From positions 62,001 through 126,000 of the forward strand of contig NZ_FNOZ01000005.1 in the NCBI RefSeq assembly GCF_900107175.1: a stretch of DNA of 64,000 bases, read 5' to 3'. Below, in pieces: positions 1 to 60,210 of the stretch. Within the stretch, counting starts at the first letter, position 1. Each line of letters begins with the position of its first letter. Origin of the DNA: Modestobacter sp. DSM 44400. Lineage in GTDB: Bacteria; Actinomycetota; Actinomycetes; Mycobacteriales; Geodermatophilaceae. The notes beneath the pieces are model-generated. The model did no database searches. It saw nothing but the letters and a program-made list of their open reading frames with translations, and was not told the origin of the DNA. Both the position numbers and the translations under genes were made by a program.

Positions 1-1259
1 GGCAGATCGCGGGCCGGCGGAGCCCACTCCCGCAGCTCGTCGACCAGGTGCTGGCGCGCCGGGTCGGCGTGCCGGGCGCCCACCCGGCGGACTCCGTGCT
101 CGGTCACCAGGTCGATCATGCAGACGTCGGCCAGCCCAGACACGGCCAGGCCGGCCAGCCGCTCGACCATCTCCTCCACCCCGGCGGCGCCGGCCAGCAA
201 CCGGGCCGCGTCGAGCAGGAAGGCCGAGCGCTCGCCCTGTCGGGCGGTCTCCTCGTGCAGCTGGGCCCGTTCCAGCGCCTGTCCGGCCTGCCGCCCCAGG
301 GTCCACAGCAGGTCGACGTCCCGGGCGGACAGCTCACCGGGCACGGGCTGGTCGAGGTCGATCAGGTCGCCGGCGCGGGCCTCGCCGAGGGCCAGCACGA
401 GCACGCCCAGCGCCCGGCTGGCCGCCGACACCGGGACGACGACCAGCGAATGCAGCCCGGCGTCGGCCATCGCGGCGGCCAGCCGCGGCCGCTGTGCGGT
501 CAGCCGGTCGCCGAGGACCAGCGTGCGCAGCCCCTCGGCGAGCTCCAGCGCGACCCGGCCCTCCGCGGCCGTCGCCAGTTCCGCCAGCAACCCGTCGGGC
601 AGGCCGTCGCTGCGCGCGACCACCAGGCTGGGGCGGTCGGCTTCCCCCGCGGCGCGGTCGGTCACCAGCCACAGCGCGGCGCCGCGGGCCCGCAGCGCAC
701 CCCGGGCCTGCTCGACCACGACCGTGGCGACGTCGGAGACGGTGGTTGCCCGGGCGAGCTCGGACACCACCTGCTGCAGCGTGCGCGACCGGGCCTCGGA
801 CTCCTCGGCGGCCCGGTGGGCGGCCAGGATGTCCCGCTCGTAACGCCGCCGCGCGGTGGCCTCGAACAGCGTCGCCCGCACCATCAGCGGCGCCCCGGTG
901 TCGTCGCGCAACTCGACGGCGTTCACCAGGCAGGGCAGCAGCGACCCGTCGACCCGGACGACGTCCAGCGCCACCTCGCGGACCGCGCCCTGCATGCGCA
1001 GCAGCGGCGCCAGGTGGGTGTCGTGGAAGACCTGCCCGCCGACGCTGAGCACGTCGCGCAGCCGGGTGTGCAGGAGCTGCTCGGGCGTGCGCCCGGTCCA
1101 CGCGCAGAACGTCCGGTTGACCTTGACGATCCTGCCGTCGGGCAGCGTGGACAGGTAGCCGCAGGGCGCGTTCTCGTACAGGTCTGCCGGGTCGTCCTCG
1201 AGCAGCTGGTCCAGCTGCGCCCGGACGTCGCTCCCGGACCGCCGTTCCGCGTCGGGCAT
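1..1259 (-). CDS. PAS/GAF sensor protein, RsbP-like (3' end outside window)
   Basis: The frame is open from an ATG (reading MPDAER) to the left window edge, so only the first ~419 residues are present. A PAS domain occupies about residues 15-135 (ENAPCGYL, then DGRIVKVN and TGRTPEQLL), followed by a GAF-like domain at about 160-310 (ALRARGAALWLV, then ALGVLVLALGEA) and the beginning of a second GAF-like segment. In actinobacteria this domain string usually leads to a C-terminal PP2C/SpoIIE phosphatase, which would lie beyond the edge; that part is inference. It starts 8 bp after rsbQ, and B. subtilis pairs RsbQ with the PAS-PP2C phosphatase RsbP, so this is probably the RsbP-type partner that senses a small ligand or energy state and activates a general-stress sigma factor cascade. 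Confidence 0.8.
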   Translation of the reverse strand, partial: MPDAERRSGSDVRAQLDQLLEDDPADLYENAPCGYLSTLPDGRIVKVNRTFCAWTGRTPEQLLHTRLRDVLSVGGQVFHDTHLAPLLRMQGAVREVALDVVRVDGSLLPCLVNAVELRDDTGAPLMVRATLFEATARRRYERDILAAHRAAEESEARSRTLQQVVSELARATTVSDVATVVVEQARGALRARGAALWLVTDRAAGEADRPSLVVARSDGLPDGLLAELATAAEGRVALELAEGLRTLVLGDRLTAQRPRLAAAMADAGLHSLVVVPVSAASRALGVLVLALGEARAGDLIDLDQPVPGELSARDVDLLWTLGRQAGQALERAQLHEETARQGERSAFLLDAARLLAGAAGVEEMVERLAGLAVSGLADVCMIDLVTEHGVRRVGARHADPARQHLVDELREWAPPARDL

Positions 1260-1267
1260 CTCGGCGC

Positions 1268-2062
1268 CTACTGCAGGAACGCCCGGATGGCGGCGGCGGT
1301 CTCCTCGGGCGCACTCAGGTTGGGGCAGTGCCCGGTGGCGGCGAGCTGGGTGAAGGCGCTCCCCAGCACGTGCTCGTGCACGTAGCGGCCGGCCGACTCC
1401 GGGGCGATGACGTCCTGGCTACACTGCAGCACCAGCGTCGGCACCTGCACGCGGGGCAGGTCGGCCCGGTTGTCGGAGAGGAAGGAGACCCGGGCGAACT
1501 GACGGGCGACGTCGGGACTGGTGCGGCAGAAGCTGTTCGTGAGCTCGGCAGCGAGCTCGGGGCGGTCGGGGTTGCCCATGATCGCCGGGGCCATGGCGGC
1601 CGACCAGCCCAGCTGGTTGGCGTCCAGGCTGTCCAGCAGTTCACGGATCTGCTCCCGGGAGAAGCCCCCGGCGTAGTCGCCGTCGTCGACGTAGCGGGCG
1701 CTCGGGCCGACCATCACCAGGACGCCGAAGCGCTCCGGCGCCTCCAGGTAGGCGAGCACGCCGATCATCGCGCTCACTGAATGGCCCACGAAGACGACAT
1801 CGGTGAGTTCCAGTTCGCGCAGCATCTCCACGACGTCCGCGGCGTAGCCGCGCAGCGAGTTGTACTTGACCGGGTCGTACGCCGACAGGTCCGACTGCCC
1901 GAAGCCGACGTGGTCGAAGGTGACGACCCGGTGGTCGACCTCGAAGTCGGAGACGACGAAGCGCCACATGTTCTGGTCGCAGCCGTAACCGTGGGCGAAG
2001 ACCATCGGTCGCCCGTCGGGGACACCGCTCACACGGACGTCGTTCCGTGTGCACACGACCAT
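1268..2062 (-). CDS. rsbQ: alpha/beta hydrolase RsbQ-like, sigma-factor stress pathway
   Basis: A 264-residue alpha/beta hydrolase that resembles Bacillus RsbQ along its length, for example GYGCDQNMW, RVVTFDHVGFGQSDL, FVGHSVSAMIG and QCSQDVIAPES. The nucleophile is Ser95 in GHSVS. The acid is the Asp of QDVIAP (about 217) and the base is the His of GHCPNLS (about 246). RsbQ is thought to bind or convert a small hydrophobic molecule and so activate the PAS-PP2C phosphatase RsbP. The next gene, 8 bp downstream, encodes a PAS/GAF protein, which supports the same pairing here. The same fold and motifs occur in the KAI2/D14 karrikin/strigolactone receptor family. An in-frame GTG two codons inside could be the true start. 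Its promoter would have to lie in the decayed P450 region upstream. Confidence 0.9.
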   Translation of the reverse strand: MVVCTRNDVRVSGVPDGRPMVFAHGYGCDQNMWRFVVSDFEVDHRVVTFDHVGFGQSDLSAYDPVKYNSLRGYAADVVEMLRELELTDVVFVGHSVSAMIGVLAYLEAPERFGVLVMVGPSARYVDDGDYAGGFSREQIRELLDSLDANQLGWSAAMAPAIMGNPDRPELAAELTNSFCRTSPDVARQFARVSFLSDNRADLPRVQVPTLVLQCSQDVIAPESAGRYVHEHVLGSAFTQLAATGHCPNLSAPEETAAAIRAFLQ

Positions 2063-8030: not shown

Positions 8031-9152
8031 TCAGCCCCAGACCTCCTGCGCCGTCTCCACGACGAGGGCCAGTTTGGCGCTCTGCTCCTCCCGGGTGAGC
8101 GAGTTGCCTTCCACAGTGGAGGAGAAACCGCACTGCGGGGACAGCGCCAACTGCTCCATCGGCACGTGTTCCGCCGCCTCGTCGATGCGCCGCTTCAGGT
8201 CGTCCTTGCTCTCCAGGTCCGGGCGCTTGGTGGTGACCAGGCCCAGGACGACGCGCTTGCCCGGGGGCACGAAGCGCAGCGGCTCGAAGGTCCCCGACCG
8301 GGCGTCGTCGAACTCCAGGAAGAACCCGTCGACCTCCAGCCCGCCGAACAGCGCCTCGGCCACGAAGTCGTAGCCGCCCTCGGCCACCCACGAGGAACGG
8401 AAGTTGCCGCGGCACATGTGCGTGGTGACCGTCAACCCCGCCGGCCGCCCGGCGAGCGCGGCGTTGATCTGGCGGATGTACCGCTCGTGCTGGTGCTCGG
8501 CATCCCGGCCCTGGCCGGCGAGCTCGGCGCGCTGCGCCGGGTCGTTGAGGTAGGCCAGGCTGGTGTCGTCCAGCTGCAGGTATCGGCAGCCCTGCGTCGC
8601 GATGGCCTGCACCTGCTGGCGGTAGGCCGCCGAGAGGGCATCCCAGAAGGAGTCCTCGTCCGGGTAGACGGCCGGGTCGATCGCGGCCGCACCGCCGCGG
8701 TAGTGGACCATCGACGGCGACGGGATGGTCAGCTTGGCCGTCTGCGCGCCACTGACCTGGCTCTGCAGGTACCCGAAGTCCGGACCGAAGATCGGTTCGT
8801 CGATCGACAACGGACCGTCGACCCGGAGCCCGGCCGGGGTGAAGTCGATCGTGCTGTTGGCGTTCTTGAAGTGGACCTCGATGTTCTCCTTCACCTTGCT
8901 GATCCCGTTGATCGCATAGATGAAGTCCATGTGCCACGACGCGCGGCGGAACTCGCCGTCGGTCGCGGTCGACAGGCCCACGTCGCCCTGCAGGCGGACC
9001 ACGTCGGCGATCGCCTCGTCCTCGGTGCCCCGCAGCTCGGCCGCGTCGATCTCCCCCGCGGCGTACCGGGCCCGCGCGTCGAGCAGCGACTTCGGGCGCA
9101 GCAGGCTGCCAACGTGGTCGGCGCGGAACGGAGGGCCGGAGGCATCGGACAT
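8031..9152 (-). CDS. cobalamin-independent methionine synthase C-terminal-like methyltransferase (YxjG/YxjH type)
   Basis: A 373-residue protein consisting only of the C-terminal (beta/alpha)8 catalytic half of MetE. It opens with FRADHVGSLLRP, the usual start of this family, then TDGEFRRASWHMDF, DDTSLAYL (substrate loop), THMCRGNF with the His and Cys zinc ligands, FLEFDD and a C-terminal LSPQCGFSSTVEGN whose Cys is the third zinc ligand. Full MetE is ~750 residues; the short forms transfer methyl groups to homocysteine or other thiols from donors that are not settled. It stands alone, with a hairpin after its stop. No SAM or cobalamin riboswitch is visible in the 80-bp upstream gap. Confidence 0.88.
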   Translation of the reverse strand: MSDASGPPFRADHVGSLLRPKSLLDARARYAAGEIDAAELRGTEDEAIADVVRLQGDVGLSTATDGEFRRASWHMDFIYAINGISKVKENIEVHFKNANSTIDFTPAGLRVDGPLSIDEPIFGPDFGYLQSQVSGAQTAKLTIPSPSMVHYRGGAAAIDPAVYPDEDSFWDALSAAYRQQVQAIATQGCRYLQLDDTSLAYLNDPAQRAELAGQGRDAEHQHERYIRQINAALAGRPAGLTVTTHMCRGNFRSSWVAEGGYDFVAEALFGGLEVDGFFLEFDDARSGTFEPLRFVPPGKRVVLGLVTTKRPDLESKDDLKRRIDEAAEHVPMEQLALSPQCGFSSTVEGNSLTREEQSAKLALVVETAQEVWG

Positions 9153-9238
9153 GGCCTCATCCTGCTCGCCGTCCGCGCTGCCGTCCCGCGGCGGGAGGCC
9201 GGCGGACGTGCACAGGCGACGGGCGGATACTGGTGGCC

Positions 9239-9577
9239 ATGTCGAAGCGGGTCGTCGTCGCCGGGGTCGTGTGGGTGGTCGTCACGGTGCTGGCATTCCT
9301 GGTCGATCCGATCCTGGGCTCGGTGGTGGGCATCTTCGGTGCGACCGGGGTCGTCGTCCTGTCCCTGGGCAACTCCTGGGACCGGCACCCGGACTTCGAG
9401 GAGCGCGAGCTGGACCGGTCCCGCCGGCGGGCGGCCAAGAAGGCGGAGAACTGGGACAAGAACGCCGACGTCCGCGAACGCGACCGCGCGCGCTACACCG
9501 CCCACCAGGCCAAGCTTGCCGTCAAGGCGGAGGCCAAGGAGGCCAGGCGCCAGTCCACCGAGCGACGCGCCTCCTGA
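9239..9577 (+). CDS. small membrane protein with basic, helical cytoplasmic tail
   Basis: A 112-residue protein (MSKRVVVAG); a GTG two codons earlier is an alternative start. Two hydrophobic segments (VVAGVVWVVVTVLAFLV and GSVVGIFGATGVVVLSL) form a hairpin at residues 4-45, followed by a ~65-residue highly charged tail rich in Arg, Lys and Glu (RSRRRAAKKAENWDKN). It is divergent from the methyltransferase gene. I do not recognise the family; the layout suggests a membrane-anchored coiled helix facing the cytoplasm. Confidence 0.6.
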   Translation: MSKRVVVAGVVWVVVTVLAFLVDPILGSVVGIFGATGVVVLSLGNSWDRHPDFEERELDRSRRRAAKKAENWDKNADVRERDRARYTAHQAKLAVKAEAKEARRQSTERRAS

Positions 9578-9589
9578 GGCGAAAACCCC

Positions 9590-9618
9590 TCGACCCAGGA
9601 CGGCGGCACCCCTAGGGT
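9590..9618 (+). promoter_or_regulatory. promoter for a leaderless leader ORF
   Basis: A -35-like TCGACC and a -10-like TAGGGT are separated by 17 bp. Eight bases after the -10 comes an ATG, so transcription would start on or next to the start codon, giving a leaderless mRNA. Prediction from spacing and consensus only. Confidence 0.45.
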
Positions 9619-9626
9619 TTGCGGAC

Positions 9627-9662
9627 ATGGGCTCTTCCTCCGTGCGGCTGCGCACCTCCTGA
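9627..9662 (+). CDS. putative leader peptide, 11 codons, leaderless
   Basis: The ORF reads MGSSSVRLRTS followed by TGA. It sits 8 bp downstream of a -10 hexamer and 11 bp before a perfect 9-bp hairpin, 112 bp ahead of the next gene. This arrangement (leaderless peptide, hairpin, structural gene) resembles actinobacterial attenuation leaders such as those before cysteine and branched-chain amino acid genes. It holds three consecutive serines and two arginines; whether ribosome stalling on Ser or Arg codons regulates the gene downstream is speculative. No homolog is claimed. Confidence 0.4.
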   Translation: MGSSSVRLRTS

Positions 9663-9672
9663 GCTGACCGTC

Positions 9673-9694
9673 GCGGGCGCTCCCCAGCGCCCGC
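9673..9694 (+). terminator. hairpin after the leader ORF, candidate attenuator
   Basis: GCGGGCGCT pairs perfectly with AGCGCCCGC across a CCCC loop, starting 11 bp after the leader stop codon. It is followed by a C-rich tract (TCCCCCCACCCC), which resembles a rut-like unstructured region more than an intrinsic T-run. Confidence 0.45.
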
Positions 9695-9773
9695 CGTCAC
9701 TCCCCCCACCCCGTTCCCCGGCCGGACCGCCGGATGCCGCGGGCTGCCCCACACCCACAGGAGAGGTCTCCCC

Positions 9774-10148
9774 ATGTCACGCCCCATCCCTGCCCTGACC
9801 GACGCCGCCGCGCAGGCCCGCGCCGAGCTCGCCGAGGACGCACACGCCGGCTTCGACCGGCTGGTGCACGCGCTGCTCCCCTCGCCGTCCCGCCAGCCCG
9901 CGCTGGGCGCCGCGTTGCGCGGGCAGCTCCCCGGCACCGCCGGGGTCCGGTGGTTGCACGCCGAGGGGCTCGCACCCACCGCCCGGGCCGCCGACCTGAC
10001 CACCGCCCAGTGGTTGTCGCTGCACACCGCCTGGCTCACCCACGACCAGGCGCCGCGCGGCGGGAACCGGCCGGCCGGGCGGACCGGGCGCGCCGACAGC
10101 CGGCACGGGCACGCGCCCGGCGCCCAGGCCGCGCCGCGCTGGTTCTGA
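9774..10148 (+). CDS. unknown 124-residue protein behind a leader peptide
   Basis: Start ATG is fixed by AGGAGAGG seven bases upstream. The first ~95 residues look like a compact helical domain (ALTDAAAQARAELAEDAHAG, FDRLVHALLP, TAQWLSLHTAWLTHD). The last ~30 are Gly/Arg/His-rich and probably disordered, ending in APRWF. I do not recognise the family and see no membrane segment or signal peptide. The 5' region carries a leaderless 11-codon ORF and hairpin, suggesting regulated expression. The gene stands alone between a small membrane protein and the convergent sacsin-like gene. Confidence 0.65.
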   Translation: MSRPIPALTDAAAQARAELAEDAHAGFDRLVHALLPSPSRQPALGAALRGQLPGTAGVRWLHAEGLAPTARAADLTTAQWLSLHTAWLTHDQAPRGGNRPAGRTGRADSRHGHAPGAQAAPRWF

Positions 10149-10191
10149 AAGAGGACCCCGTCCTCCTCGCGACGGGGCCGCCGGGACGTCG

Positions 10192-13155
10192 TCAGCCGAC
10201 GGCGTCCTCCGCGGCCAGCTCCGCCGCCCGCTCCGGAGCGGCGAACGCCTCGGCGAGCGCCTGCCGCTGCGGCCAGGCACCGGCCCGCCAGGCCAGGGCC
10301 CGGCCGAGCGCGGCCGGGCTGCCGTCGACCGCGTCGGTGTCGCGGCCGGGCCACCAGGCCACTCCGCGGTCGCCGGTAACGGTCAGCGGCTCGTGCACCG
10401 CCACCCGGCCGGTCAGCACCGGCACGCCCAGCCGCGCCGCGGCCAACTCCGCGCCGGGGACGTCGGCCCAGGCCAGCACCCGGACCGCTTGGCTGGTCAC
10501 CTCCGCCTGCAGCACCTCGCTGGCCATCGGCAGGTCGAGGAGATCGGCCACCGCTCCGGGGACACCACCGGCCGGGACGGCGGCCCGATCGACCAGTGGC
10601 TGTAACCACGGCGCGTCGAGCACGACCGCGTCGCCGCTGACCTGCGCCGGGGCGACCCGCACGCGGTCCGGCGGCTCGGCCTCCACCCCGTCCAGGGCGG
10701 CGGCGAGCCGGGCGTAGACGTCGCGGAGGACCGGCGCGGGCACCGTCCGCGCCGGGTCGCCGAGGCGGTCCAGCAGCTCGAGCGCGTCGTCCACGTCAGC
10801 GAGTACGTCGGCCACCGTGCCGGGAGGCTGCAGCAGGTCCAGGACGGCGGCGGGAAGCTCGGGCATCGGTTCGTACAGTCCCTGTAACTCGGTGCTGTCG
10901 GCCGCATGCAGGCGGTCCGGGCGCCGGCCGCCCAGCACCGGCGACGTGCGCAGCCACCAGCGCAGGTAGCCGGGCACGACGGTGCCGTCGAGGTCGAGGT
11001 CGGCCCGCGCCGCCGCCGGCAGCGCGGCCAGCAGCGGCAGCGCGGCCGGCCAGTCCGCCACCAGCTCCAGGTCCCGGACGGCGGTCAGCGGCGGCCAGTG
11101 CGGCGGCGGCGCACCGGCGGGCAACCGGTCCACGACGGCGTCCACCCAGTCGGCGACGCGGTCGACGTCCAGCTCGTCGGGGTCCTCGGCGGTGATCAGC
11201 GCGAAGGTGTCCAGCACGCCGGCAGCCCGTAGTGCGGCAGGCTCCTGCCCGGCGGCGAAGTCGGCGTCCAGCGTGCCCAGCGAGCCGGGTTCCAGGACGG
11301 CGGCCAGCGGTGAGCCGGGCAGCACCAGTTCGCCGGCCGCCGCCCAGCCGCCGTCGGCGTCCGGAAGGGCGAGCTCGGCCAGCCAGGGCAGGTCCCCCGG
11401 TGCGGTGCCGGCCGCAGCGACCAGGGTCAGCACCGCCGCGGCGAGGTCCTCCACGTCGTCCGCCTCGTCCATCCCGCCGTCATCCGCTCGTTCCAGCGAC
11501 GTCTCCACTGCCGCACGAACCTGCGGGTCGGCGAGCACCGCGCCCGCCGTGGCCGGCAGCGCGCCCAGCCGCTCGAGCACCCGGGCTGCGGGGCCCGCGG
11601 TGGCATCCGGGTCGGCGATCCGCAGCCCCAGCGGAGCCAGCCGGGCCACCGGCAGCCCCTCGTCAGCGAGCAGCACCCCGGCCGGGCTCTGCGCCGTCCG
11701 CCCGTCGGCGAGCGGCACCGGCAGGCCGCCCAGCTCGTCGCGGTCGGCGTCGGCGAGTGCGGCGTAGAGGGCCGCCCACCAGGACGGCGGCCGCTGCACG
11801 CTCCGAACCGCCTCCACCACCTCGGCCAGCCCGGCCCGCCGCCCGCCCAGTGCCCGCAGCGCCCGGGAGTCACCGCGCCGTGACCAGCCGGCCGGCAGCA
11901 GTCCGGGCAGCACGCCGGTGAGCGCGGCGACGCGGTCCTCCGTGGGGTCGTCGAGGGCGACCGCGCGCTCGGGGCGCTGCAGCTCCGTCTCCTCCCCCGC
12001 CACCGGCAGCCACGCAGTCAGGGTCAGCCGGTCGAGCACCGCGGTGCCGACGGCGGCGTCCAGCTCGGCGGCGGCCAGCGCGGCCTGCGGCACGAACTGC
12101 AGCAGCACCGGGTCGGGCGGCAGCTCGGCGAGCAGGTCGGCGTAGGCGTTGGCCGCAACCTGCACGAGCGCGTCGGTGACCGGGCCCGGGACGACGTGCC
12201 GGCGATCGGGTCCGAGCGGGAAGGGGGCGATGAGGCGGGCCGGCAGGGAGAGGGGCTCGTCGCCGGCGGTCGGCGCGTGCAGCACCTGCCGTCCGGTCAG
12301 CGGGCGCGGAACGCCGTCGGCGTCCAGCGGCACCGCCCAGGTAACGGTGTAGCCGCGGCGCTCCCGCTCCTCGACCGGCCGCTGGGCGAACAGCTGGGCC
12401 GGCAGCTCCCCGGAGCGTTGGAGAACGTGCCAGGTGGTGGCGCGGTCGCCGTCGGCCAGCCGCGCCGTCCCGCCCACCAGCCGGCTGGTCAGGGTCCGCG
12501 GGACGCCGTCCACCACGACGTCGATCTCGGTCAGTCCCGGCAGGGCGAGCAGCAGCTCCGGCTCGAGCGCGACCAGCGCCGTCCGGACGACGTCCTCGGT
12601 GCCCGGACGCAGCGGCAGCACGACCTCGGTGGACCAACCGGCCCGCGGCACGTCGTCGACCTCGAAGGGCAGCCGGAGGACCGGGACGGCGCCGCCGCGC
12701 CGGGCCAGCTCCTCGGCCAGCGCGGAGACAGCGGTGACGGCCTGCCGGGTGCGGTCGGCGCTGAAGGCGACCGAGCGCACGGTGGACAGCACGGCGGGTT
12801 CGTCGCTGACCGCGAGCACGGCGGCGAAGCCGACCCCGAACCGGCCGACGGTCCCGGCCTCGTCCCGCTTGGCCGAGGCGCGCAGGGTGGCCAGCGCCTG
12901 CACGCCACCGTCGTCCAGGGGCGCGCCGGTGTTGGCGGCCCACAGGACCCCGCCGGTCAGCTCCAGCCGCAGCCGGCCGGGCACCCCGGCGCGGGCCGCG
13001 GCATCGGCGGCGTTCTGCGCGAGCTCGACCAGCAGCCGATCGCGGTACCCGCCCCGGACCAGGTCCTCCTCGGCGTTGGCGTCCTCCCGGAAGCGGGCCG
13101 GGGAGTCGGTCCAGGCGGCCAGTACCCGGCGGCGGAGTTCAGCGGGATCGGGCAC
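10192..13155 (-). CDS. sacsin-type GHKL ATPase protein, 987 residues
   Basis: The N-terminal ~200 residues form an Hsp90/sacsin-type ATP-binding domain. The N-box ELAQNAADAA (Glu44, Asn48, Asp51) holds the Mg-ligand Asn, and GTVGRFGVGFAAVL (~100) is the glycine-rich lid. AANTGAPLDDGGV matches the conserved Asp/Gly loop. The remaining ~780 residues contain no motif I know; they are Ala/Leu/Asp-rich with regularly spaced W and P positions and are soluble in character. Actinobacterial proteins annotated as sacsin N-terminal ATPase-like have this length. A chaperone or conflict-system role has been suggested for relatives, but neither is shown here. It starts at GTG and ends 44 bp from the convergent gene. 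Confidence 0.8.
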   Translation of the reverse strand: MPDPAELRRRVLAAWTDSPARFREDANAEEDLVRGGYRDRLLVELAQNAADAAARAGVPGRLRLELTGGVLWAANTGAPLDDGGVQALATLRASAKRDEAGTVGRFGVGFAAVLAVSDEPAVLSTVRSVAFSADRTRQAVTAVSALAEELARRGGAVPVLRLPFEVDDVPRAGWSTEVVLPLRPGTEDVVRTALVALEPELLLALPGLTEIDVVVDGVPRTLTSRLVGGTARLADGDRATTWHVLQRSGELPAQLFAQRPVEERERRGYTVTWAVPLDADGVPRPLTGRQVLHAPTAGDEPLSLPARLIAPFPLGPDRRHVVPGPVTDALVQVAANAYADLLAELPPDPVLLQFVPQAALAAAELDAAVGTAVLDRLTLTAWLPVAGEETELQRPERAVALDDPTEDRVAALTGVLPGLLPAGWSRRGDSRALRALGGRRAGLAEVVEAVRSVQRPPSWWAALYAALADADRDELGGLPVPLADGRTAQSPAGVLLADEGLPVARLAPLGLRIADPDATAGPAARVLERLGALPATAGAVLADPQVRAAVETSLERADDGGMDEADDVEDLAAAVLTLVAAAGTAPGDLPWLAELALPDADGGWAAAGELVLPGSPLAAVLEPGSLGTLDADFAAGQEPAALRAAGVLDTFALITAEDPDELDVDRVADWVDAVVDRLPAGAPPPHWPPLTAVRDLELVADWPAALPLLAALPAAARADLDLDGTVVPGYLRWWLRTSPVLGGRRPDRLHAADSTELQGLYEPMPELPAAVLDLLQPPGTVADVLADVDDALELLDRLGDPARTVPAPVLRDVYARLAAALDGVEAEPPDRVRVAPAQVSGDAVVLDAPWLQPLVDRAAVPAGGVPGAVADLLDLPMASEVLQAEVTSQAVRVLAWADVPGAELAAARLGVPVLTGRVAVHEPLTVTGDRGVAWWPGRDTDAVDGSPAALGRALAWRAGAWPQRQALAEAFAAPERAAELAAEDAVG

Positions 13156-52682: not shown

Positions 52683-53483
52683 ATGGCACAGGGCACACGG
52701 GAGGCGGCTTCCCCCCACGACAGCCAGGTCGCGTGCCTGCTGCACCACCTGATCGCGACCAGCAGCAGCGTGCTGAAGGCGGCAGCCGGGAGCATCTCGC
52801 TGATCGACGCCTCGCGGGACCGGTACGCAAAGGTGGCCGAACGCGGGACGTCCTGTCGGCTGGGCAGCAGCTTCCCACTCGACGAGGGGATCACCGGGCG
52901 AGTCGTCGCCCAGCGACGGCCCGTGGTACTGAAAACCTACGGCGAGATCCGCGCGGGTCACCTGGCGGCCGAGGAGGCAGCGCACTCCGGCGCCGTCGTG
53001 GCCGTGCCCATCTGGTGGCGCGGTGACGTCGTTGGCGCGAACGTCGTGTTCGCCTGCCGGTCCCGACGCTTCACGGTCGCCGAGATCGACGAGCTCGAGC
53101 TGCTCACCCAGACGGCCGTTCCCGGTCTCGTCCGCGCCGGGGTCGACGAAGCTTCGCTGGCCCACCTGATCCGGCGGCGGCGCGGAGACGACCGCCTGCT
53201 CGCCGAGACTCCGGGGCCACGCGTGGGGGCGGCCCCGAATGCGGGCAGTTCCGCTGACCGGTCGCCGCTGACCCGGCGGGAACGGGAGACCGTCGTCCTG
53301 CTCGCTCGCGGCCTGAGCAACCGGCAGCTCGCCAGCGCGCTGGTGCTGTCGCCCAAGACGGTGGAGAAGCACGTGGCCGCAGTGCTGCACAAGACCGGCA
53401 CGGGCAGCCGCACCGCCGCCGTGATGAGCGCGCTGGAACGGGGTTGGCTGCCGCGCCCGAGCGATCGGCCGACCTCCGGCTGA
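52683..53483 (+). CDS. GAF-LuxR type transcriptional regulator
   Basis: A 266-residue regulator with GAGGAG six bases before ATG. Residues ~25-165 are a GAF sensor (ISLIDASRDRYAKVAERGTS, GITGRVVAQRRPVVLKTYGE, VAVPIWWRGDVVGANVVFAC). Residues ~198-260 hold the LuxR/NarL helix-turn-helix (LTRRERETVVLLARGLSNRQ, LSPKTVEKHVAAVLHKTG). It lies 101 bp upstream of the aldolase-DhaLK operon on the same strand and is its probable activator, sensing a small ligand through the GAF domain (inference). Confidence 0.88.
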   Translation: MAQGTREAASPHDSQVACLLHHLIATSSSVLKAAAGSISLIDASRDRYAKVAERGTSCRLGSSFPLDEGITGRVVAQRRPVVLKTYGEIRAGHLAAEEAAHSGAVVAVPIWWRGDVVGANVVFACRSRRFTVAEIDELELLTQTAVPGLVRAGVDEASLAHLIRRRRGDDRLLAETPGPRVGAAPNAGSSADRSPLTRRERETVVLLARGLSNRQLASALVLSPKTVEKHVAAVLHKTGTGSRTAAVMSALERGWLPRPSDRPTSG

Positions 53484-53510
53484 CAACTGGGGGAATCACC
53501 CCATACAACA

Positions 53511-53521
53511 GTGACGGTCAC
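53511..53521. promoter_or_regulatory. palindrome before the aldolase operon
   Basis: GTGAC-G-GTCAC, 64 bp before the aldolase start, next to a small GGGG-AATCA-CCCC hairpin. It is a candidate operator for the GAF-LuxR regulator. No confident -35/-10 pair was found here. Confidence 0.3.
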
Positions 53522-53584
53522 CACGCTTTACTCCTGTTACAGAACCAGTCGTGCCCGTGTCCGACCGAGAGCACAGGAGTGTCG

Positions 53585-54445
53585 GTGCCCGTCGTCCCCA
53601 TGAAGGAGCTCCTCGACCGTGCGCTGGCCGACCGGTACGGCGTGCCGGCGTTCAACATCATCAACGACCTGAGCATCGAGGCGGTCCTCGCGGCCGCCGT
53701 CGCGGAGAACTCCCCGGTCATCCTGCAGACGTCGGTCAAGACGGTGCGGATGTACGGCCGCGCCCAGCTGTTCGACATCTTCCGCGCCCTGGTCCGCGGC
53801 GTCCCCGTGCCCGTGACGCTGCACCTGGATCACTGCCCGGACCGCTCCGTCATCAGCGACTGCCTCCAGGGCGGCTGGAACTCCGTCCTGTTCGACGCCC
53901 ACGAGCTCGACGTCGCGGAGAACCTCCGACAGACCACCGAGGTCGTGGCCGATGCCCGGGCGCGCGGTGCGCACGTTGAGGGCGAGATCGAGGGCATCCA
54001 AGGAGTCGAGGACGGCATCGGCTCCGACGAAGCCTCCCTCGTCCAGACGCTCGAGGTCGCCGTGGACTTCATCCAGCGCACAGGGGTGGACTGCTTCGCC
54101 CCCGCCATCGGCAACGCCCACGGTCAGTACGCATCCGCTCCCGTGCTCGACTCCCAGCGGGTGAGCGACCTCGTGGAGGCGACCGGCGTGCCGATGGCCC
54201 TGCACGGCGGGACCGGGCTGTCCGCCGAGCAGTTCCAGGACCTCATCGCCCGCGGCTGCGCCAAGGTCAACATTTCCACGGCGCTCAAGCAGGTGTACAT
54301 GCAGTCGAGCCTGCAGTTCCTGCTCAGCGCCGAGGAGAAGGGGAAGTGGGACCCGCCGTCCCTGTTCGCTCACCAGCGCAGCGCCGTGATGGACATGGCG
54401 CAGGAGCACATGCGCACATTCGGCAGTTCGGGACGTGCCTGGTGA
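53585..54445 (+). CDS. class II ketose-bisphosphate aldolase (FBA/GatY/KbaY family)
   Basis: A 286-residue zinc aldolase from GTG (VPVVPMKELL), with AGGAG five bases upstream. Family motifs: YGVPAFNIINDLSIEAVLAA, metal-binding HLDHCPD (~81), VLFDAHELD, Glu in EGEIEGIQGVEDG (~135), zinc His in AIGNAHGQY (~178), ALHGGTGLS and KVNISTAL for phosphate binding. These enzymes cleave ketose (bis)phosphates to DHAP and an aldehyde. The neighbours (DhaLK, CbbY-like phosphatase) suggest a dedicated sugar pathway rather than glycolysis. The stop overlaps the next start (GTGA). Confidence 0.9.
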   Translation: MPVVPMKELLDRALADRYGVPAFNIINDLSIEAVLAAAVAENSPVILQTSVKTVRMYGRAQLFDIFRALVRGVPVPVTLHLDHCPDRSVISDCLQGGWNSVLFDAHELDVAENLRQTTEVVADARARGAHVEGEIEGIQGVEDGIGSDEASLVQTLEVAVDFIQRTGVDCFAPAIGNAHGQYASAPVLDSQRVSDLVEATGVPMALHGGTGLSAEQFQDLIARGCAKVNISTALKQVYMQSSLQFLLSAEEKGKWDPPSLFAHQRSAVMDMAQEHMRTFGSSGRAW

Positions 54446-55263
54446 GCGCCCTGGTCTTCGACTGCGACGGCGTGCTCGCCGACACCGAGCGGTACGGCCA
54501 CCTGCCCGCGTTCAACGCGACCTTCGCCGAGCACGGCCTCCCGGTGCGCTGGAGCGAGGACGACTACGGGGAGAAGCTGGCGATCGGCGGCGGGAAGGAG
54601 CGGATGGCCAGCCTGTTCCGCGACCCGAAGTTCGTCCGCACCGCCAGCATCCCGGACGACGACGGTACGCGCGCCCAGCTGCTCACCGAGTGGCACCGCA
54701 CGAAGACGGCGCGGTTCCGCGCGCTGGTGGCCGCAGGGCAGATCCCGGCCCGCCCCGGCGTCGCGCGGCTGATCACCGAAGCACTCGACGAGGGATGGAC
54801 CGTCGCGGTCGCGTCCACGTCGGCCGAGGAGTCCGTCCACGCCGTCCTCGAGCACGCCGTCGGGGCGGACACCGCGGGGCGGATACCGGTCTTCGCCGGT
54901 GACGTCGTGCCGGCCAAGAAGCCCGATCCGGCGATCTACGACCTGGTGGTGGCGACCCTCGGCCTGAATCGCGGCGACACGCTGGTCGTGGAGGACTCAC
55001 GCAACGGGCTGCTCGCCGCGACCGGCGCCGGCCTGCCCTGTCTGGTCACGGTCAACGGGTACACCAGGACCGAGCCGTTCGACGAGGCCGTCCTGGTGGT
55101 GTCCGAACTCGGGGACCCCGGCCGGCCGCCGATCGAGGTACTGGCCAACCGGGGGCGCGCGCACCCCGGCGACCACATCGCGCTGGCGGACGTGCGGGCG
55201 TGCCTCGGCGCACCGACGGCCCCCGCCTCATCCACCGGCCGTTCTCTGGGAGGAACTGCGTGA
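54442..55263 (+). CDS. HAD phosphatase, CbbY-like
   Basis: A 273-residue HAD-superfamily enzyme from GTG (VSALVFDCDGVLADTERYGH). Nucleophile Asp and acid Asp lie in FDCDG, motif II Ser/Thr in VASTS, Lys in PAKKPDPAIY and acidic motif IV in VVEDSRNGL. The cap start (AFNATFAEHGLPVRWSEDDY, GGGKERM) is close to CbbY, the xylulose-1,5-bisphosphate phosphatase, more than to beta-phosphoglucomutase. The C-terminal ~40 residues extend beyond the usual end. Likely removes a phosphate from a sugar (bis)phosphate in the same pathway. GTGA overlaps at both ends. Confidence 0.85.
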   Translation: MSALVFDCDGVLADTERYGHLPAFNATFAEHGLPVRWSEDDYGEKLAIGGGKERMASLFRDPKFVRTASIPDDDGTRAQLLTEWHRTKTARFRALVAAGQIPARPGVARLITEALDEGWTVAVASTSAEESVHAVLEHAVGADTAGRIPVFAGDVVPAKKPDPAIYDLVVATLGLNRGDTLVVEDSRNGLLAATGAGLPCLVTVNGYTRTEPFDEAVLVVSELGDPGRPPIEVLANRGRAHPGDHIALADVRACLGAPTAPASSTGRSLGGTA

Positions 55264-55907
55264 GCAGCACCGCACAACGGCAGGCGGACCTGGTCGTCCG
55301 CACGATCGCCCAGGCGGCCGTCGACAACGAGAAGTACTTCGGCGACCTCGACGCCGTCGTCGGCGACGGCGACTTCGGCTACTCACTGGCCCGCGGCTTC
55401 GAGACCGTGCTCGCCGGATGGGACGACGTCGACCGCACTGACATCGGCACCTTCCTGAAGAAGATCGGAATGATGATCACGGCCCGGATCGGGGGCACTT
55501 CCGGGCCCATCTGGGGAACCGCGTTCATGCGAGCCGGGATGACCGCAGGCGCGACGGACACCCTGACCGGGGATCAGGTCGTGGCCATGCTGCGCGCAGC
55601 CATCGAGGGCATCAAGGCGCGCGGCCAGTCCGACGTCGGCGACAAGACCCTGCTCGACGTCCTGGCGCCCGTGACCGACCGTCTGGAGGCCGAGGTGGCC
55701 GCGGGGGCCGACGCCACCCAGACTCTGACAGCACTGGCCGTCACCGCCAAGGAGGCCGCGGAGGCCACCGTGGACATGGTCGCCAAGCGCGGCCGCGCGT
55801 CCTACACGGGCGAGCGCAGCAAGGGATCGGTCGACGCCGGCGCCATGGGCGTGGCCGTGATCATCGGTCGGATCAACGAGGCCTGGCAGACAGAGGGAGC
55901 GTCATGA
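55260..55907 (+). CDS. dhaL: dihydroxyacetone kinase-type ADP/ATP-binding subunit DhaL
   Basis: A 215-residue Dak phosphatase/L-domain protein. The nucleotide-metal loop VVGDGDFGYSLARGF (~28) contains the Asp cluster, GGTSGPIWGTAFMRAG the P-loop-like turn, DKTLLDVLAPV the third site, and SKGSVDAGAMGVAVI the end. In E. coli DhaL carries ADP that is re-phosphorylated by the PTS protein DhaM; no DhaM or PTS gene is seen here, so ATP exchange is likelier. Overlaps dhaK by ATGA. Confidence 0.92.
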   Translation: MSSTAQRQADLVVRTIAQAAVDNEKYFGDLDAVVGDGDFGYSLARGFETVLAGWDDVDRTDIGTFLKKIGMMITARIGGTSGPIWGTAFMRAGMTAGATDTLTGDQVVAMLRAAIEGIKARGQSDVGDKTLLDVLAPVTDRLEAEVAAGADATQTLTALAVTAKEAAEATVDMVAKRGRASYTGERSKGSVDAGAMGVAVIIGRINEAWQTEGAS

Positions 55908-56899
55908 AGAAGTTCGTCAACGACCCGAAGCAGTTCGTCCCGGAGATGCTCGAGGGGCTCGCGCTGGCCAACCCGCACACCCTGAAGTACCTCCCGGAGT
56001 ACAACCTCGTCATGCGTGCGGACTCCCCGCGCGAGGACAAGGTGTCCATCGTGCAGGGCTCGGGCTCCGGCCACGAGCCCGCCCACGTCATGATCGTCGG
56101 CAGGGGGATGCTGGACGCCGCGTGTCCCGGTGACGTCTTCGCCGCGCCGCCGATGAACTACGTCTACGAGACGGCCAAGCTGCTGGCCACGCCCAAGGGT
56201 GTGCTGTTGCTGGTGAACAACTACACCGGCGACCGGATGGCCTTCGACATGGGCAAGGAGATGGCCGAGTCCGAGGGCATCAAGGTCGAGATCCTGACGA
56301 TCAACGACGACGTGGCCGTCAAGGACTCGACCTACACGGTGGGCCGGCGTGGCGTGGCCGGGAACTTCTTCGTCATCAAGGCGGTGGGCGCGGCCGCGGA
56401 GCAGGGCGCCGACCTCGACGAGGTGATCCGGGTGGGCAAGAAGGTCAATGACGTGACCCGGACGATGGGCGTTGCGCTCACCGCCTGCACCCCGCCGGCC
56501 AAGGGCTCACCGCTGTTCGAGCTGGGTGCGGACGAGATCGAGATGGGCGTCGGCATCCACGGCGAGCCCGGCCGCGAGCGCAAGAAGATGACGAACGCCG
56601 ACGCCCTCACCGACGAGCTGCTCGACGCTGTCGTCACCGACCTGCCGTACACCGCCGGCGACAACGTCGCCCTGATGATCAACGGCCTGGGCGGCACCCC
56701 GATCAGCGAGCTCTACATCCTGTACCGCCGCGCCCACCAGCAGCTCGCCGAGCGCGGCATCACCGTCACCCGCAGTTACGTCAATGAGTACTGCACTTCG
56801 CTTGACATGGCCGGCGCCTCGCTCACGCTCGTCAAACTGGACGACGAGATCGACGCGCTGCTCAGCGCGCCGGCGGAGGTCCCGGTCCGGGTGTTCTGA
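55904..56899 (+). CDS. dhaK: dihydroxyacetone kinase-type substrate subunit DhaK
   Basis: A 331-residue DhaK. SGSGHEPAHVMIVGRGMLDA forms the sugar phosphate-binding loop and GIHGEPGRERKKM (~218) holds the histidine that binds the ketose carbonyl covalently. NNYTGDRMAFDMG, DLPYTAGDNVALMINGLGGT and EYCTSLDMAGASLTL complete the family. It phosphorylates dihydroxyacetone or a related ketose (erythrulose, for example) together with DhaL. The subunit order L before K is reversed relative to E. coli dhaKLM. Confidence 0.94.
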   Translation: MKKFVNDPKQFVPEMLEGLALANPHTLKYLPEYNLVMRADSPREDKVSIVQGSGSGHEPAHVMIVGRGMLDAACPGDVFAAPPMNYVYETAKLLATPKGVLLLVNNYTGDRMAFDMGKEMAESEGIKVEILTINDDVAVKDSTYTVGRRGVAGNFFVIKAVGAAAEQGADLDEVIRVGKKVNDVTRTMGVALTACTPPAKGSPLFELGADEIEMGVGIHGEPGRERKKMTNADALTDELLDAVVTDLPYTAGDNVALMINGLGGTPISELYILYRRAHQQLAERGITVTRSYVNEYCTSLDMAGASLTLVKLDDEIDALLSAPAEVPVRVF

Positions 56900-56963
56900 C
56901 CTCGCCAGCGAACGACGGCGCGGGCAGCTGCCCGGACCGCACATCTCATCCAGTGGAGACACC

Positions 56964-57377
56964 ATGGGCAGGCAGATCACGCTCGACCAGGCCGAGGCCA
57001 TCCTCGATGCGTGCAAGGCGGAGGCGGTGACCGTCGGCCAACCGATGAACATCGCGGTGGTGGACGACGGCGGCAACCTCGTGGCCTTCGCGGCCATGGA
57101 CGGCACGAAGCTCATCGGCGTCGACATCTCCCAGAAGAAGGCACTCACCGCCGTCTATTTCCAGACCGACACCCGAGACCTCGCCGAGCTCGTGCAGCCG
57201 GGACAACCGCTGTTCGGCATCGAGTCGACCACGGGGGGGCGACTGGTCGTCTTCGGTGGTGGAGTGCTGCTGACCGGTCCCGACGGTTCGCTCGTCGGCG
57301 GTGTCGGAGTGAGTGCCGGGACGGTCGAGGAGGACCACCAGGTCGCTGAGGCCGGGCGGAGGGCGTTCGCCGGCTGA
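56964..57377 (+). CDS. HbpS/GlcG-family (DUF336) protein
   Basis: A 137-residue GlcG/HbpS domain (ITLDQAEAILDACKAEAV, MNIAVVDDGGNLVAFAAMDG, KKALTAVYFQTDTRDL, VGVSAGTVEEDHQVAEAG). RBS GTGGAGAC precedes ATG. Relatives bind heme or corrin-like ligands and are found beside glycolate, diol and DHA-kinase genes with no settled function. Last gene of the island, 64 bp after dhaK; probably the same transcript. No secretion signal, unlike Streptomyces HbpS. Confidence 0.85.
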   Translation: MGRQITLDQAEAILDACKAEAVTVGQPMNIAVVDDGGNLVAFAAMDGTKLIGVDISQKKALTAVYFQTDTRDLAELVQPGQPLFGIESTTGGRLVVFGGGVLLTGPDGSLVGGVGVSAGTVEEDHQVAEAGRRAFAG

Positions 57378-58109: not shown

Positions 58110-59159
58110 TCAGCGCGGAGGCTCTGCGCGCCGGCCGATCGGGACCCAGCGCCCCTCTCCCACCTCGTCCGCCGTCCCGGCGGCACGCTGGCCGGCGATG
58201 CCGCTCCCGCCGCCGAGGCCGCCGCCGTTCGGCTTCCCTCCGGTGGTGGCCCGGGACGCCTTGCGACCTCCGAGCCCGCCGCTCCCGAAGCCCCCGCCGC
58301 TCGCCGAACTGCGGTTCCCGAAACCGCCGCCACCCGAGCCACGGCTGGCGAAGCCACCACCGCCGGGAACGATCTCCTCCGCGGCCCCGACGTTCTCGAG
58401 CTCGTCACTGCCAGGGAGGTCGTCGTCGGGATCGGTGCCCGTGTCGCCGGCATCGGCGTACACGGCGTCCAGCGCCTCGCGCGCCACGATTCCGGCCAGT
58501 CCACCGCCGTAGCCCTTGCGGGCGAGCATGCCGACCAGTCGGCGCTCGGCGGTCACCTGGTCCAGTCGGGCCATGCTGCGGGCCTTGCGCTCCACCAGTC
58601 GGCGTGCGGTGTCCCACTCGTCCTGCGGGTCGACCTCGGCGACCGCCGCAGCGGCCACTTCGTCGTCGATGCCCTTGGCCCGGAGCTCCTGGGTCAGCGC
58701 CCGGCGGGCCAGGCCGCGACCGGACTGCCGCGAGGTCACCCACGCCGCAGCGAACGCGGCGTCGTCGATCAATCCGACCTCGGTAAGCCGGTCGAGCACG
58801 GCCTCGACGACGTCGTCGGCGACCTCGCGCCGGGCCAGGAGTTCCGCGAGCTGCTGGCGGGTCTTGGACGCCCCGGTCAGCGCCCGCAGGCAGATGCCGC
58901 GGGCAACTTCGACCGGGTCGCGGTCGTCGGCGGGAGCCGTCGACCCGTCGTCGGTGGAACCGTCGGCGCCGGTGGCGCTGCCGGCTCGTCGACCTGCGCC
59001 ACGGCCGCTGCGTCCATCGCCGAACCCGGACCCGGACCGCGCGCCGGCTCGGCCCCGCCCCGAGGCGGCACCCGCGCGGCGGCGGCCGGACCGGCGGGCG
59101 TCGCCATCCGCCGGTCCCGCCTCAGCGTCGGGGTCCGGACCGGACCACGGGTCGTTCAT
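58110..59159 (-). CDS. recX: RecX, regulator of RecA, with disordered Gly/Arg-rich flanks
   Basis: A 349-residue protein, against ~170 for typical RecX. The RecX helical repeats cover about residues 80-235 (VARGICLRALTGASKTRQQL, VVEAVLDRLTEVGLIDDAAF, WVTSRQSGRGLARRALTQEL, AERRLVGMLARKGYGGGLA). The N-terminus is a ~75-residue Arg/Gly-rich stretch and the last ~100 residues are Gly/Ser/Phe-rich (GGGGFASRGSGGGGFGNR). RecX caps or inhibits RecA filaments. The extensions look disordered and may bind DNA or drive clustering (inference). Starts 7 bp after recA. Confidence 0.88.
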   Translation of the reverse strand: MNDPWSGPDPDAEAGPADGDARRSGRRRAGAASGRGRAGARSGSGFGDGRSGRGAGRRAGSATGADGSTDDGSTAPADDRDPVEVARGICLRALTGASKTRQQLAELLARREVADDVVEAVLDRLTEVGLIDDAAFAAAWVTSRQSGRGLARRALTQELRAKGIDDEVAAAAVAEVDPQDEWDTARRLVERKARSMARLDQVTAERRLVGMLARKGYGGGLAGIVAREALDAVYADAGDTGTDPDDDLPGSDELENVGAAEEIVPGGGGFASRGSGGGGFGNRSSASGGGFGSGGLGGRKASRATTGGKPNGGGLGGGSGIAGQRAAGTADEVGEGRWVPIGRRAEPPR

Positions 59160-59166
59160 GACCGGC

Positions 59167-60210
59167 TCAGAAGTCGACCGGCTCAGCTGCCGGCGCCTCA
59201 GCCTTCGGCGCGCCGATGCCCAGCTTCTCCTTGATCTTCTTTTCGATCTCGTCGGCCAGGTCCGGGTTGTCCTTCAGGAAGGTGCGGACGTTCTCCTTGC
59301 CCTGGCCGAGCTGGTCGCCCTCATAGGTGTACCAAGCACCGGACTTGCGGACGATGCCCTGCTCGACACCGATGTCGATGAGGCCACCCTCGCGGCTGAA
59401 GCCAGTGCCCCAGATGAGGTCGAGCTCGGCCTGCTTGAACGGCGCGGCCACCTTGTTCTTGACGACCTTCACCCGCACCCGGCTGCCGACCGCGTCGGTG
59501 CCCTGCTTGAGGGTTTCGATGCGCCGGACGTCGAGCCGGACCGAGGAGTAGAACTTCAGCGCCCGGCCGCCGGTGGTGACCTCCGGCGAGCCGTAGACCA
59601 CGCCGACCTTCTCGCGCAGCTGGTTGATAAAGATCATCGTGGTGCCGGAGTTGCTCAACGCACCGGTGATCTTGCGGAGCGCCTGGCTCATCAGCCGGGC
59701 CTGCAGACCCACGTGGCTGTCACCCATCTCGCCCTCGATCTCGGCGCGCGGCACGAGCGCGGCCACCGAGTCGACGACGATGACATCCAGCGCGCCGGAG
59801 CGGATCAGCATGTCGGCAATTTCCAGCGCCTGCTCACCGGTGTCGGGCTGGCTGATCAGCAGGGCGTCGGTGTCCACGCCGATCGCGCGGGCGTAGTCGG
59901 GGTCCAGGGCGTGCTCGGCGTCGATGAACGCCGCGATGCCGCCGGAGGCCTGGGCGTTGGCCACCGCGTGCAGGGCGACCGTCGTCTTGCCGGAGGCCTC
60001 GGGGCCGTAGACCTCCACGACCCGGCCACGGGGCAGCCCCCCGATGCCGAGCGCGATGTCCAAGGCGATGGACCCGGTCGGGATGACCTTCATGGCGACC
60101 TCGGGCGAGTCGCCCAGGCGCATCACGGAGCCCTTGCCGAACTGCTTGTCGATCTGGGCGAGGGCCATGTCGAGGGCCTTGTCGCGGTCCAGCGTTGCCA
60201 TGGTGGCCAC
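59167..60210 (-). CDS. recA: recombinase RecA
   Basis: A 347-residue RecA, full length, with the usual opening [20 protein letters not shown]. Walker [10 protein letters not shown], Walker [14 protein letters not shown]1 [20 protein letters not shown], ATPase sensor [17 protein letters not shown], and acidic C-terminus. Polymerises on ssDNA, drives recombination and triggers LexA cleavage. ATG at codon 4 is the alternative start. Two damage-responsive signals lie upstream: a LexA box and a PafBC-like promoter. No intein. Confidence 0.98.

Follow-up and report, generated by a model that had tools for sequence, protein, structure and literature searches.

Four adjacent genes in Modestobacter sp. 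DSM 44400, encoding a class II aldolase, a CbbY-type phosphatase and the two subunits DhaL and DhaK of a kinase of the dihydroxyacetone (DHA) type, form a real unit that has been co-inherited far beyond chance. They belong to a block of six plus-strand genes at positions 52683–57377 of the 64,000-nucleotide stretch that we analyzed (contig NZ_FNOZ01000005.1, positions 62,001 to 126,000; hereafter the window). Based on sequence comparison we tentatively propose, with somewhat less than even confidence, that the unit is a horizontally mobile module for sugar-phosphate assembly, in which the action of a kinase would be followed by an aldol condensation and by the removal of a C1 phosphate.

Gene families were assigned with Pfam and NCBIfam profiles. 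The aldolase gene (53585–54445, 286 aa) likely starts with GTG at 53585, which we prefer to the mechanical start of the open reading frame (ORF) at 53444. It is joined to the gene for the phosphatase (54442–55263, 273 aa) by the overlap GTGA at 54442–54445, the latter to dhaL (55260–55907, 215 aa) by GTGA at 55260–55263, and dhaL to dhaK (55904–56899, 331 aa) by ATGA at 55904–55907, all on the plus strand. An earlier note on this DNA had placed six genes of these families between 52683 and 57377 and had described four of them as joined by 4-bp overlaps; all six were found there, and the three overlaps were confirmed.

Relatives of the phosphatase were collected by a scan in which peptide patterns taken from the window protein served as seeds, so that the sample is not free of bias; of 159 relatives the best 80 were retained, 39 at 53% identity or more and 41 lower. 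Where the phosphatase is at least 53% identical, the aldolase lies directly upstream in all 38 loci with room for it, and the two genes overlap or lie no more than 40 bp apart in nearly all loci. DhaL and DhaK are encoded downstream in 33 and 32 of 36 such loci, respectively, and all four core genes are syntenic in 31 of the 35 testable loci. Six loci are incomplete, two of which fall outside the 35 because their contigs end. Among the six, L036 is a cut contig, and L008, L009, L026 and L033 encode a fused DhaK-DhaL of another clade a few kb upstream. In the sixth, L027 of Actinoplanes liguriensis (9145–11890), aldolase, DhaL and DhaK match in pieces only, and the module there may be decaying or the assembly may be faulty. 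In loci with a phosphatase below 53% identity the aldolase is upstream in 31 of 39, and DhaK is present in 3 of 36, those being Chloroflexi. Furthermore, all four core genes are found in every one of the 14 loci of our genome surveys (13 from a survey of the class and one from a survey of the order), and over 50 loci the pairwise distances of one core protein follow those of the others with correlations of 0.87–0.91 (permutation maximum 0.39). The proposal of a self-contained conserved unit is borne out by this synteny and by the correlated distances; the check on co-occurrence that the earlier note suggested was run, and a lack of conserved co-occurrence was not found.

The surroundings of the block and its distribution bear on how it arrived. 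Upstream, an ABC transporter of the polar-amino-acid type (an ATPase, SBP_bac_3 and two BPD permeases) ends at 52490; downstream, RecX and RecA are encoded on the minus strand at 58110–60210. In the window and in four Modestobacter loci, Modestobacter being the source of the closest named copies of the module, the block sits between GluD and a small ORF. Five relatives, two of the same genus and three of the same family, have no module gene between GluD and RecX and show the order GluD, small ORF, RecX, RecA; this empty site supports the suggestion that the block was inserted between gluABCD and recX-recA. Of the 61 genomes of the order, 2 have the phosphatase gene at 60% identity or more; of the 394 of the class, 14 (host included), which belong to 7 of its 138 genera, have it with an E value no higher than 1e-45. 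Carriers of the module belong to the Actinomycetota, the Chloroflexota and, in one metagenome-assembled genome (MAG), the Acidobacteriota. A copy in Cryobacterium is located on plasmid pA10BH1 (locus L083, 12009–32734) and adjoins a Tn3-family transposase and a recombinase. Patchy occurrence together with a plasmid copy near a transposase is what a mobile accessory trait would show, and the module would thus be a horizontally mobile accessory unit.

From this gene content we infer the direction of the reactions, the identity of the substrate, the phosphate donor and the ligand of the regulator as follows. DhaL and DhaK would phosphorylate a small free carbonyl compound, probably not plain DHA, with a phosphate that may come from ATP or, more likely, from a relay of DhaM and the phosphotransferase system (PTS) whose genes lie at another site of the genome. 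The class II aldolase would then join dihydroxyacetone phosphate (DHAP) to an aldehyde or aldehyde phosphate, yielding a ketose 1,n-bisphosphate, from which the CbbY-type phosphatase would remove the C1 phosphate; the resulting ketose monophosphate, most likely xylulose 5-phosphate, would enter the pentose phosphate pathway. Because CbbY removes the C1 phosphate, the sequence would run one way. A regulator with GAF and LuxR domains would switch the module on upon sensing a small ligand. Of the possible arrangements, only this order of kinase, condensation and dephosphorylation gives each enzyme the activity that is best supported for it.

The phosphatase has its best PDB match in Arabidopsis CbbYA (4uav, 213 bits), to which it is 49% identical; the two proven phosphatases for xylulose 1,5-bisphosphate (XuBP) are 42% identical to each other. 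It keeps 69 of the 87 columns common to Arabidopsis CbbYA and Rhodobacter sphaeroides CbbY, including the GGKER motif, H85, K88 and R104, whereas four control HAD proteins keep 36–41 of 86 columns and are without the GGKER motif. A fifth, more closely related control stands in between: it keeps 56 of 86 columns and has GGERR with the H, K and R. The assignment as a CbbY-like phosphatase is therefore borne out in detail, and the enzyme is a candidate for a phosphatase selective for XuBP. The intermediate control is encoded in genome G007 (C1:2144334-2147635, minus strand; L116, L173), where a CbbY-like HAD protein with 39% identity and GGERR is encoded some 1.7 kb away from a canonical DhaK; the locus possibly links CbbY-like phosphatases to ordinary DHA kinase loci.

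In a 64-row tree one side of a branch (99) holds plant CbbYA, the phosphatases of the module and almost all others that are linked to an aldolase, and on its other side are the types from Rubisco operons (Rhodobacter, Afipia), three without an aldolase and one with (L074). Tentatively, since the branches are long, plant CbbYA appears to group with the aldolase-linked bacterial phosphatases, apart from the CbbY of Rubisco operons. A role in Rubisco repair was considered for the module and rejected, given that no Rubisco large subunit is encoded in the host genome (5.0 Mb, 182 contigs). The 84 aldolase-CbbY loci likewise gave no match to the large subunit in a search that recovered the positive controls L085 and L087 and that covered the loci rather than the whole genomes of their carriers.

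A more specific version of the condensing scheme, which we consider unlikely as a whole, would make the module a pathway for fixing glycolaldehyde. DhaLK would be a glycolaldehyde kinase, the aldolase would combine its product with DHAP to XuBP, and CbbY would release xylulose 5-phosphate; plant CbbYA would then have its ancestor or its sister in a phosphatase from the aldolase operons of heterotrophs and not in the bacterial type of Rubisco operons. The chemistry on which this version and the broader scheme both draw is described: XuBP arises when DHAP is added to glycolaldehyde phosphate in an aldol reaction, and xylulose 5-phosphate is formed from it by CbbY (PMC10212915).

The aldolase (PF01116, 265 bits) represents a distinct subfamily. 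It keeps the HLDH and HGG motifs of the family and is homologous over its full length to the PDB chains 7nc7, 7ncc, 3q94, 8q57 and 8q58, but falls below every NCBIfam equivalog cut-off for fructose-bisphosphate (FBP) and tagatose-bisphosphate aldolases (best 232.9 vs 343 bits) and below that of the TIGR00167 subfamily (211 vs 215.6). Across 37 related rows, the window and the five PDB chains, the motifs QTSVKT, HLDHC and NxSTxxK are typical of the subfamily, not invariant. Where the window has N-x-S-T-x-x-K, the PDB aldolases, which act on fructose or tagatose bisphosphate, have N-x-N-T-x-x-Q or N-x-D-T-x-x-R. We rejected the explanation that this is the ordinary glycolytic aldolase of the strain, since it is not the only one: the genome holds a second match to the aldolase family, 30% identical over positions 8–239.

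Aldolase and phosphatase also recur together without the DhaLK of the module, in Proteobacteria and in one actinobacterial MAG, where the pair adjoins kinases of the FGGY, DUF1537 and PfkB families. From this recurrence and from the overlap or closeness of their genes, the two enzymes probably act together. Among 33 loci with the pair and without a module DhaK, an FGGY kinase is found in 20, a thiamine pyrophosphate (TPP) dehydrogenase E1 in 19 (15 proteobacterial, 4 actinobacterial) and a transaldolase-family protein in 15; the proteobacterial pair-only loci examined also have sugar ABC transporter and RpiR genes. The E1 loci are L046, L052, L053, L056–L061, L064, L065, L070–L072, L076, L008, L009, L026 and L033. 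An E1 is encoded in the core locus L007 as well, and E2 proteins are encoded in L053, L033 and L007. These neighborhoods of the E1 and transaldolase type may point to a second, larger pathway.

Such loci bear on the direction in which the pair works. The earlier note had inferred a catabolic direction and a C3–C5 ketose as substrate. Spelled out, a ketose or its phosphate would receive a phosphate at C1 from DhaLK and then be split by the aldolase into DHAP and an aldehyde, and CbbY would dephosphorylate a bisphosphate intermediate or repair an over-phosphorylated by-product. This account is possible, if rather improbable in our estimate. The FGGY kinases beside 20 of the 33 pair-only loci and the sugar ABC transporter genes of those examined (L064, L084) are arranged as in catabolic operons, and LerK, presumably a relative of DhaK, could be a precedent for the kinase step. 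An L-erythrulose 1-kinase of that name is known (PMC10733421). Phosphatase action ahead of splitting, however, wastes ATP, and condensation accounts no less well for a phosphatase behind the aldolase. Moreover, transporter, isomerase and dehydrogenase genes are not regular in the actinobacterial module. When the gene families of 58 loci were clustered, the most widespread one apart from the core and the regulator was an ABC-ATPase cluster, and no such family reached beyond 14 loci; thus, neither a dedicated transporter nor a dedicated dehydrogenase belongs regularly to the module, in agreement with what had been noted for the window.

The case for a separate kinase substrate lies in DhaK and DhaL. 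Equivalents of E. coli H56, D109 and H218 are kept in 40 of 40 module DhaK proteins, window included, so that the hemiaminal-forming His, the catalytic His and Asp and an accompanying DhaL, by which the E. coli type is recognized, are all present. Module DhaK proteins nevertheless differ from the canonical ones: in a 67-row tree, built by a quick method without bootstrap, 25 of them, drawn from three phyla, fall into a single clade (SH-aLRT 100). They carry the signature Q51, S53, M63, A81, N105 and R111. Of these residues, Q51, S53, M63 and N105 do not vary across the 53 module rows, while A81 is kept in 51 (G in the other two) and R111 in 51. The 53 rows remain from 57 after removal of four loci of the fused type and comprise 52 distinct sequences, as L081 repeats the window. 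All 34 canonical rows, three of which are the same host gene, have S50, G52, G62, S80, K104 and V/I110 at these columns (E. coli numbering). The full signature is absent from these 34 and from 20 further, diverse DhaK rows; two of the latter (L155, L157) have R at position 110 only, L155 being gapped at three columns. None of the 20 diverse DhaK loci has an aldolase or CbbY, and a set of 58 canonical DhaK loci, which includes some repeats and spans 3.9 to 12 kb per locus, likewise shows neither the module aldolase nor CbbY. The changed columns, 50–62 and 104–110, surround the catalytic H56 and D109 along the chain. In the glycolaldehyde scheme, the rebuilt loops, several of them with bulkier residues, would be those that hold the second hydroxymethyl group of DHA. 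DhaL differs in parallel: F39 is found in 52 of the 54 module rows and S42 in all of them, whereas the comparison rows, one of which is a second copy of the window gene, have H in 41 and N in 39 of 53 at these columns. As a separate observation, a DhaK paralogue in L144 (G124:C299) has C, E and G in place of the catalytic H, D and H, which suggests a DhaQ-like regulator.

Nonetheless, both subunits score above the NCBIfam cut-offs for the E. coli-type DHA kinase: DhaK (Dak1, PF02733) reaches 424.6 vs 406.3 bits for TIGR02363 and DhaL (Dak2, PF02734) 177 vs 138.3 bits for TIGR02365. These equivalog scores would be explained if the module simply assimilated DHA, the kinase forming DHAP, the aldolase joining it to glyceraldehyde 3-phosphate to give FBP, and the HAD enzyme serving as fructose bisphosphatase (FBPase); the Cryobacterium plasmid locus, with its MIP-family channel and triosephosphate isomerase (TPI), would fit as well. 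We regard this explanation as decidedly unlikely, given that the host already possesses a MIP-DhaK-DhaL-DhaM locus, GlpX and the second aldolase-family match, and that the loop residues of DhaK are altered throughout the module clade. The idea that the module stands in for a missing FBPase or transaldolase was rejected as well, since GlpX, transaldolase and transketolase are all present in the host.

The second kinase locus of the host, MIP-DhaK-DhaL-DhaM, has counterparts in other carriers. Another DhaK is encoded in 28 of 28 carriers tested, in 26 of them a canonical one with at least 60% identity to the host copy, and DhaM adjoins the other DhaK in 25 of the 28, the misses being G022 (where the contig ends nearby), G063 and G064. 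Canonical DhaK is found in 27 of 113 sampled non-carriers of the class (Fisher p about 1e-11 vs carriers, in a test that ignores kinship and compares groups sampled differently). Within the module itself, a search with one query and the low-complexity filter off found DhaM in 1 of 51 core loci, compared with 22 of 30 canonical controls. The one case is L025, a Solirubrobacterales MAG, in which an HPr gene and an EIIA-Man gene of the DhaM type (978–2022, minus strand) are divergent from the module aldolase gene, and by this gene neighborhood the module appears linked to the PTS relay. The earlier note had pictured DhaLK as a stand-alone ATP-dependent kinase without DhaM or PTS. Considering the E. 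coli-type scores, the other DhaK in all 28 carriers, 25 of them with DhaM, and the DhaM and HPr of L025, we find a stand-alone ATP-dependent DHA kinase doubtful. The pattern would fit a module DhaLK that does something other than phosphorylate DHA, and it would also fit one that borrows the PTS relay.

The Cryobacterium plasmid copy continues past the module with genes for an aquaporin (MIP), HbpS, TPI (on the other strand), RpiB, a split transketolase and GntR, and its downstream enzymes could consume the module product. The TPI- and RpiB-family isomerases and the split transketolase that follow DhaLK there would suit a route in which DhaLK is an erythrulose kinase, isomerases convert its product to erythrose 4-phosphate, and aldolase and CbbY use this with DHAP to make sedoheptulose 1,7-bisphosphate (SBP) and from it sedoheptulose 7-phosphate. 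Its RpiB does match the D-erythrulose-4-phosphate isomerase model, but with 118.8 bits lies below the cut-off of 240, and it passes the general cut-off for ribose-5-phosphate isomerase B (145 vs 135). As such isomerases occur in 1 of 51 core loci and the CbbY resembles a phosphatase for C5 bisphosphates, we judge this route quite unlikely.

A last candidate starts from formaldehyde. DHA kinase, FBP aldolase and bisphosphatase regenerate the acceptor in the xylulose-monophosphate (XuMP) cycle, and the module could supply them if a transketolase-like dihydroxyacetone synthase were encoded elsewhere. The host genome has a single full-length transketolase match, and methanol dehydrogenase dependent on N,N'-dimethyl-4-nitrosoaniline (NDMA) is above the cut-off in none of 17 genomes, 14 with the module and three with aldolase-CbbY and a different DhaKL; 13 of the 17 have relatives below the cut-off, and the 14 control genomes included no positive control. 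Methylotrophy by this cycle is thus unlikely, subject to the lack of that control, and formaldehyde assimilation as a whole seems to us very improbable.

Several points weigh against the condensing scheme that we favor. The DhaK signature marks a clade and could in part reflect drift, and its altered columns bear on the substrate insofar as S80 and K104 of E. coli DhaK contact DHA. The reactions can run as cleavage. The aldolase is near the enzymes for FBP and tagatose bisphosphate, so that FBP or SBP is a possible substrate. TPI, RpiB and transketolase stand beside the module in the Cryobacterium plasmid locus alone among the 51 core loci. Finally, 21 of the 84 aldolase-CbbY loci have less than 5 kb of flank on one side, and neighbors may have been missed there.

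Two further genes complete the block. The first encodes the GAF-LuxR transcriptional regulator (52683–53483, plus strand, 266 aa; PF13185/PF01590 GAF and PF00196 GerE above cut-off). A homologue is encoded upstream in 29 of 35 loci with a phosphatase at least 53% identical and in 11 of 14 genome-survey loci, at a threshold of 55 bits that a LuxR domain alone can reach. Regulators of related loci vary among GAF-LuxR proteins, a long GAF-kinase-REC-LuxR form, GntR-UTRA and sugar-bind proteins, which is consistent with the sensing of a sugar or sugar phosphate. A relative in L101 (10944–12776, minus strand) is a single GAF-HisKA_3-HATPase-REC-GerE protein, compared with which the window regulator has GAF and LuxR only, as if the phosphorelay core had been lost. 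The last gene of the block encodes an HbpS/GlcG-like protein (56964–57377, plus strand, 137 aa; PF03928, 131 bits) and, without an overlap, starts 64 bp downstream of dhaK. Its family is found in 6 of 95 loci besides the window (L001–L004, L083 and L109), four of them among those with a phosphatase at least 53% identical. HbpS, which had been counted as part of the set, is hence an optional member.

The enzyme families of the module are known, and its closest analogues share parts of it. The phosphatase is akin to the XuBP phosphatases of Arabidopsis and R. sphaeroides in its identity to CbbYA and in the columns of the proven enzymes; it differs in its gene partners, an aldolase and a DHA-kinase-like pair instead of Rubisco, and in standing apart from the bacterial Rubisco-operon branch. 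With the PTS-type DhaKLM of E. coli, Lactococcus lactis and the second host locus, the module shares the DhaK and DhaL families, H56, D109 and H218 and the passed cut-offs, whereas its operon is without DhaM, its loops have Q, S, M, A, N and R in place of S50, G52, G62, S80, K104 and V/I110, and its DhaK forms a separate clade. The class II aldolases of the five PDB chains share HLDH, HGG and full-length homology with the window enzyme and differ in the motif and the scores given above. For the erythritol and threitol pathway of Mycobacterium smegmatis (LerK, DerK, LerI, DerI) we know of no aldolase or bisphosphatase; the module differs from it in having neither polyol dehydrogenase nor isomerases. 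It is comparable in its use of the L-erythrulose 1-kinase LerK (PMC10733421), presumably a DhaK-family protein. The fba-glpX style pair on a Bacillus methanolicus plasmid is also an aldolase with a sugar bisphosphatase, its fba being 36% identical to the window aldolase; its bisphosphatase is GlpX, whereas the module uses a CbbY-type HAD enzyme and adds DhaLK. We take glpX, too, to be on that plasmid. The main text of a survey of dha regulons mentions neither HbpS nor an aldolase (PMC4777399). By title and the beginning of abstracts we found no description of the gene set, the DhaK clade or the aldolase subfamily, although a subscription paper may exist; the combination, the clade and the subfamily may be undescribed.

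If the proposal of a sugar-phosphate assembly module is true, a CbbY-type phosphatase would have a role outside carbon fixation, and a subfamily of DhaK and DhaL that automatic annotation would label dihydroxyacetone kinase would have a new substrate. A PTS relay would be linked to a sugar-building module, and soil actinobacteria, among others, would possess a small route from C2–C4 carbonyls to pentose phosphates. Even with DHA as the substrate, the label of the aldolase as an ordinary FBP aldolase and that of the phosphatase as a generic HAD protein would need correction.

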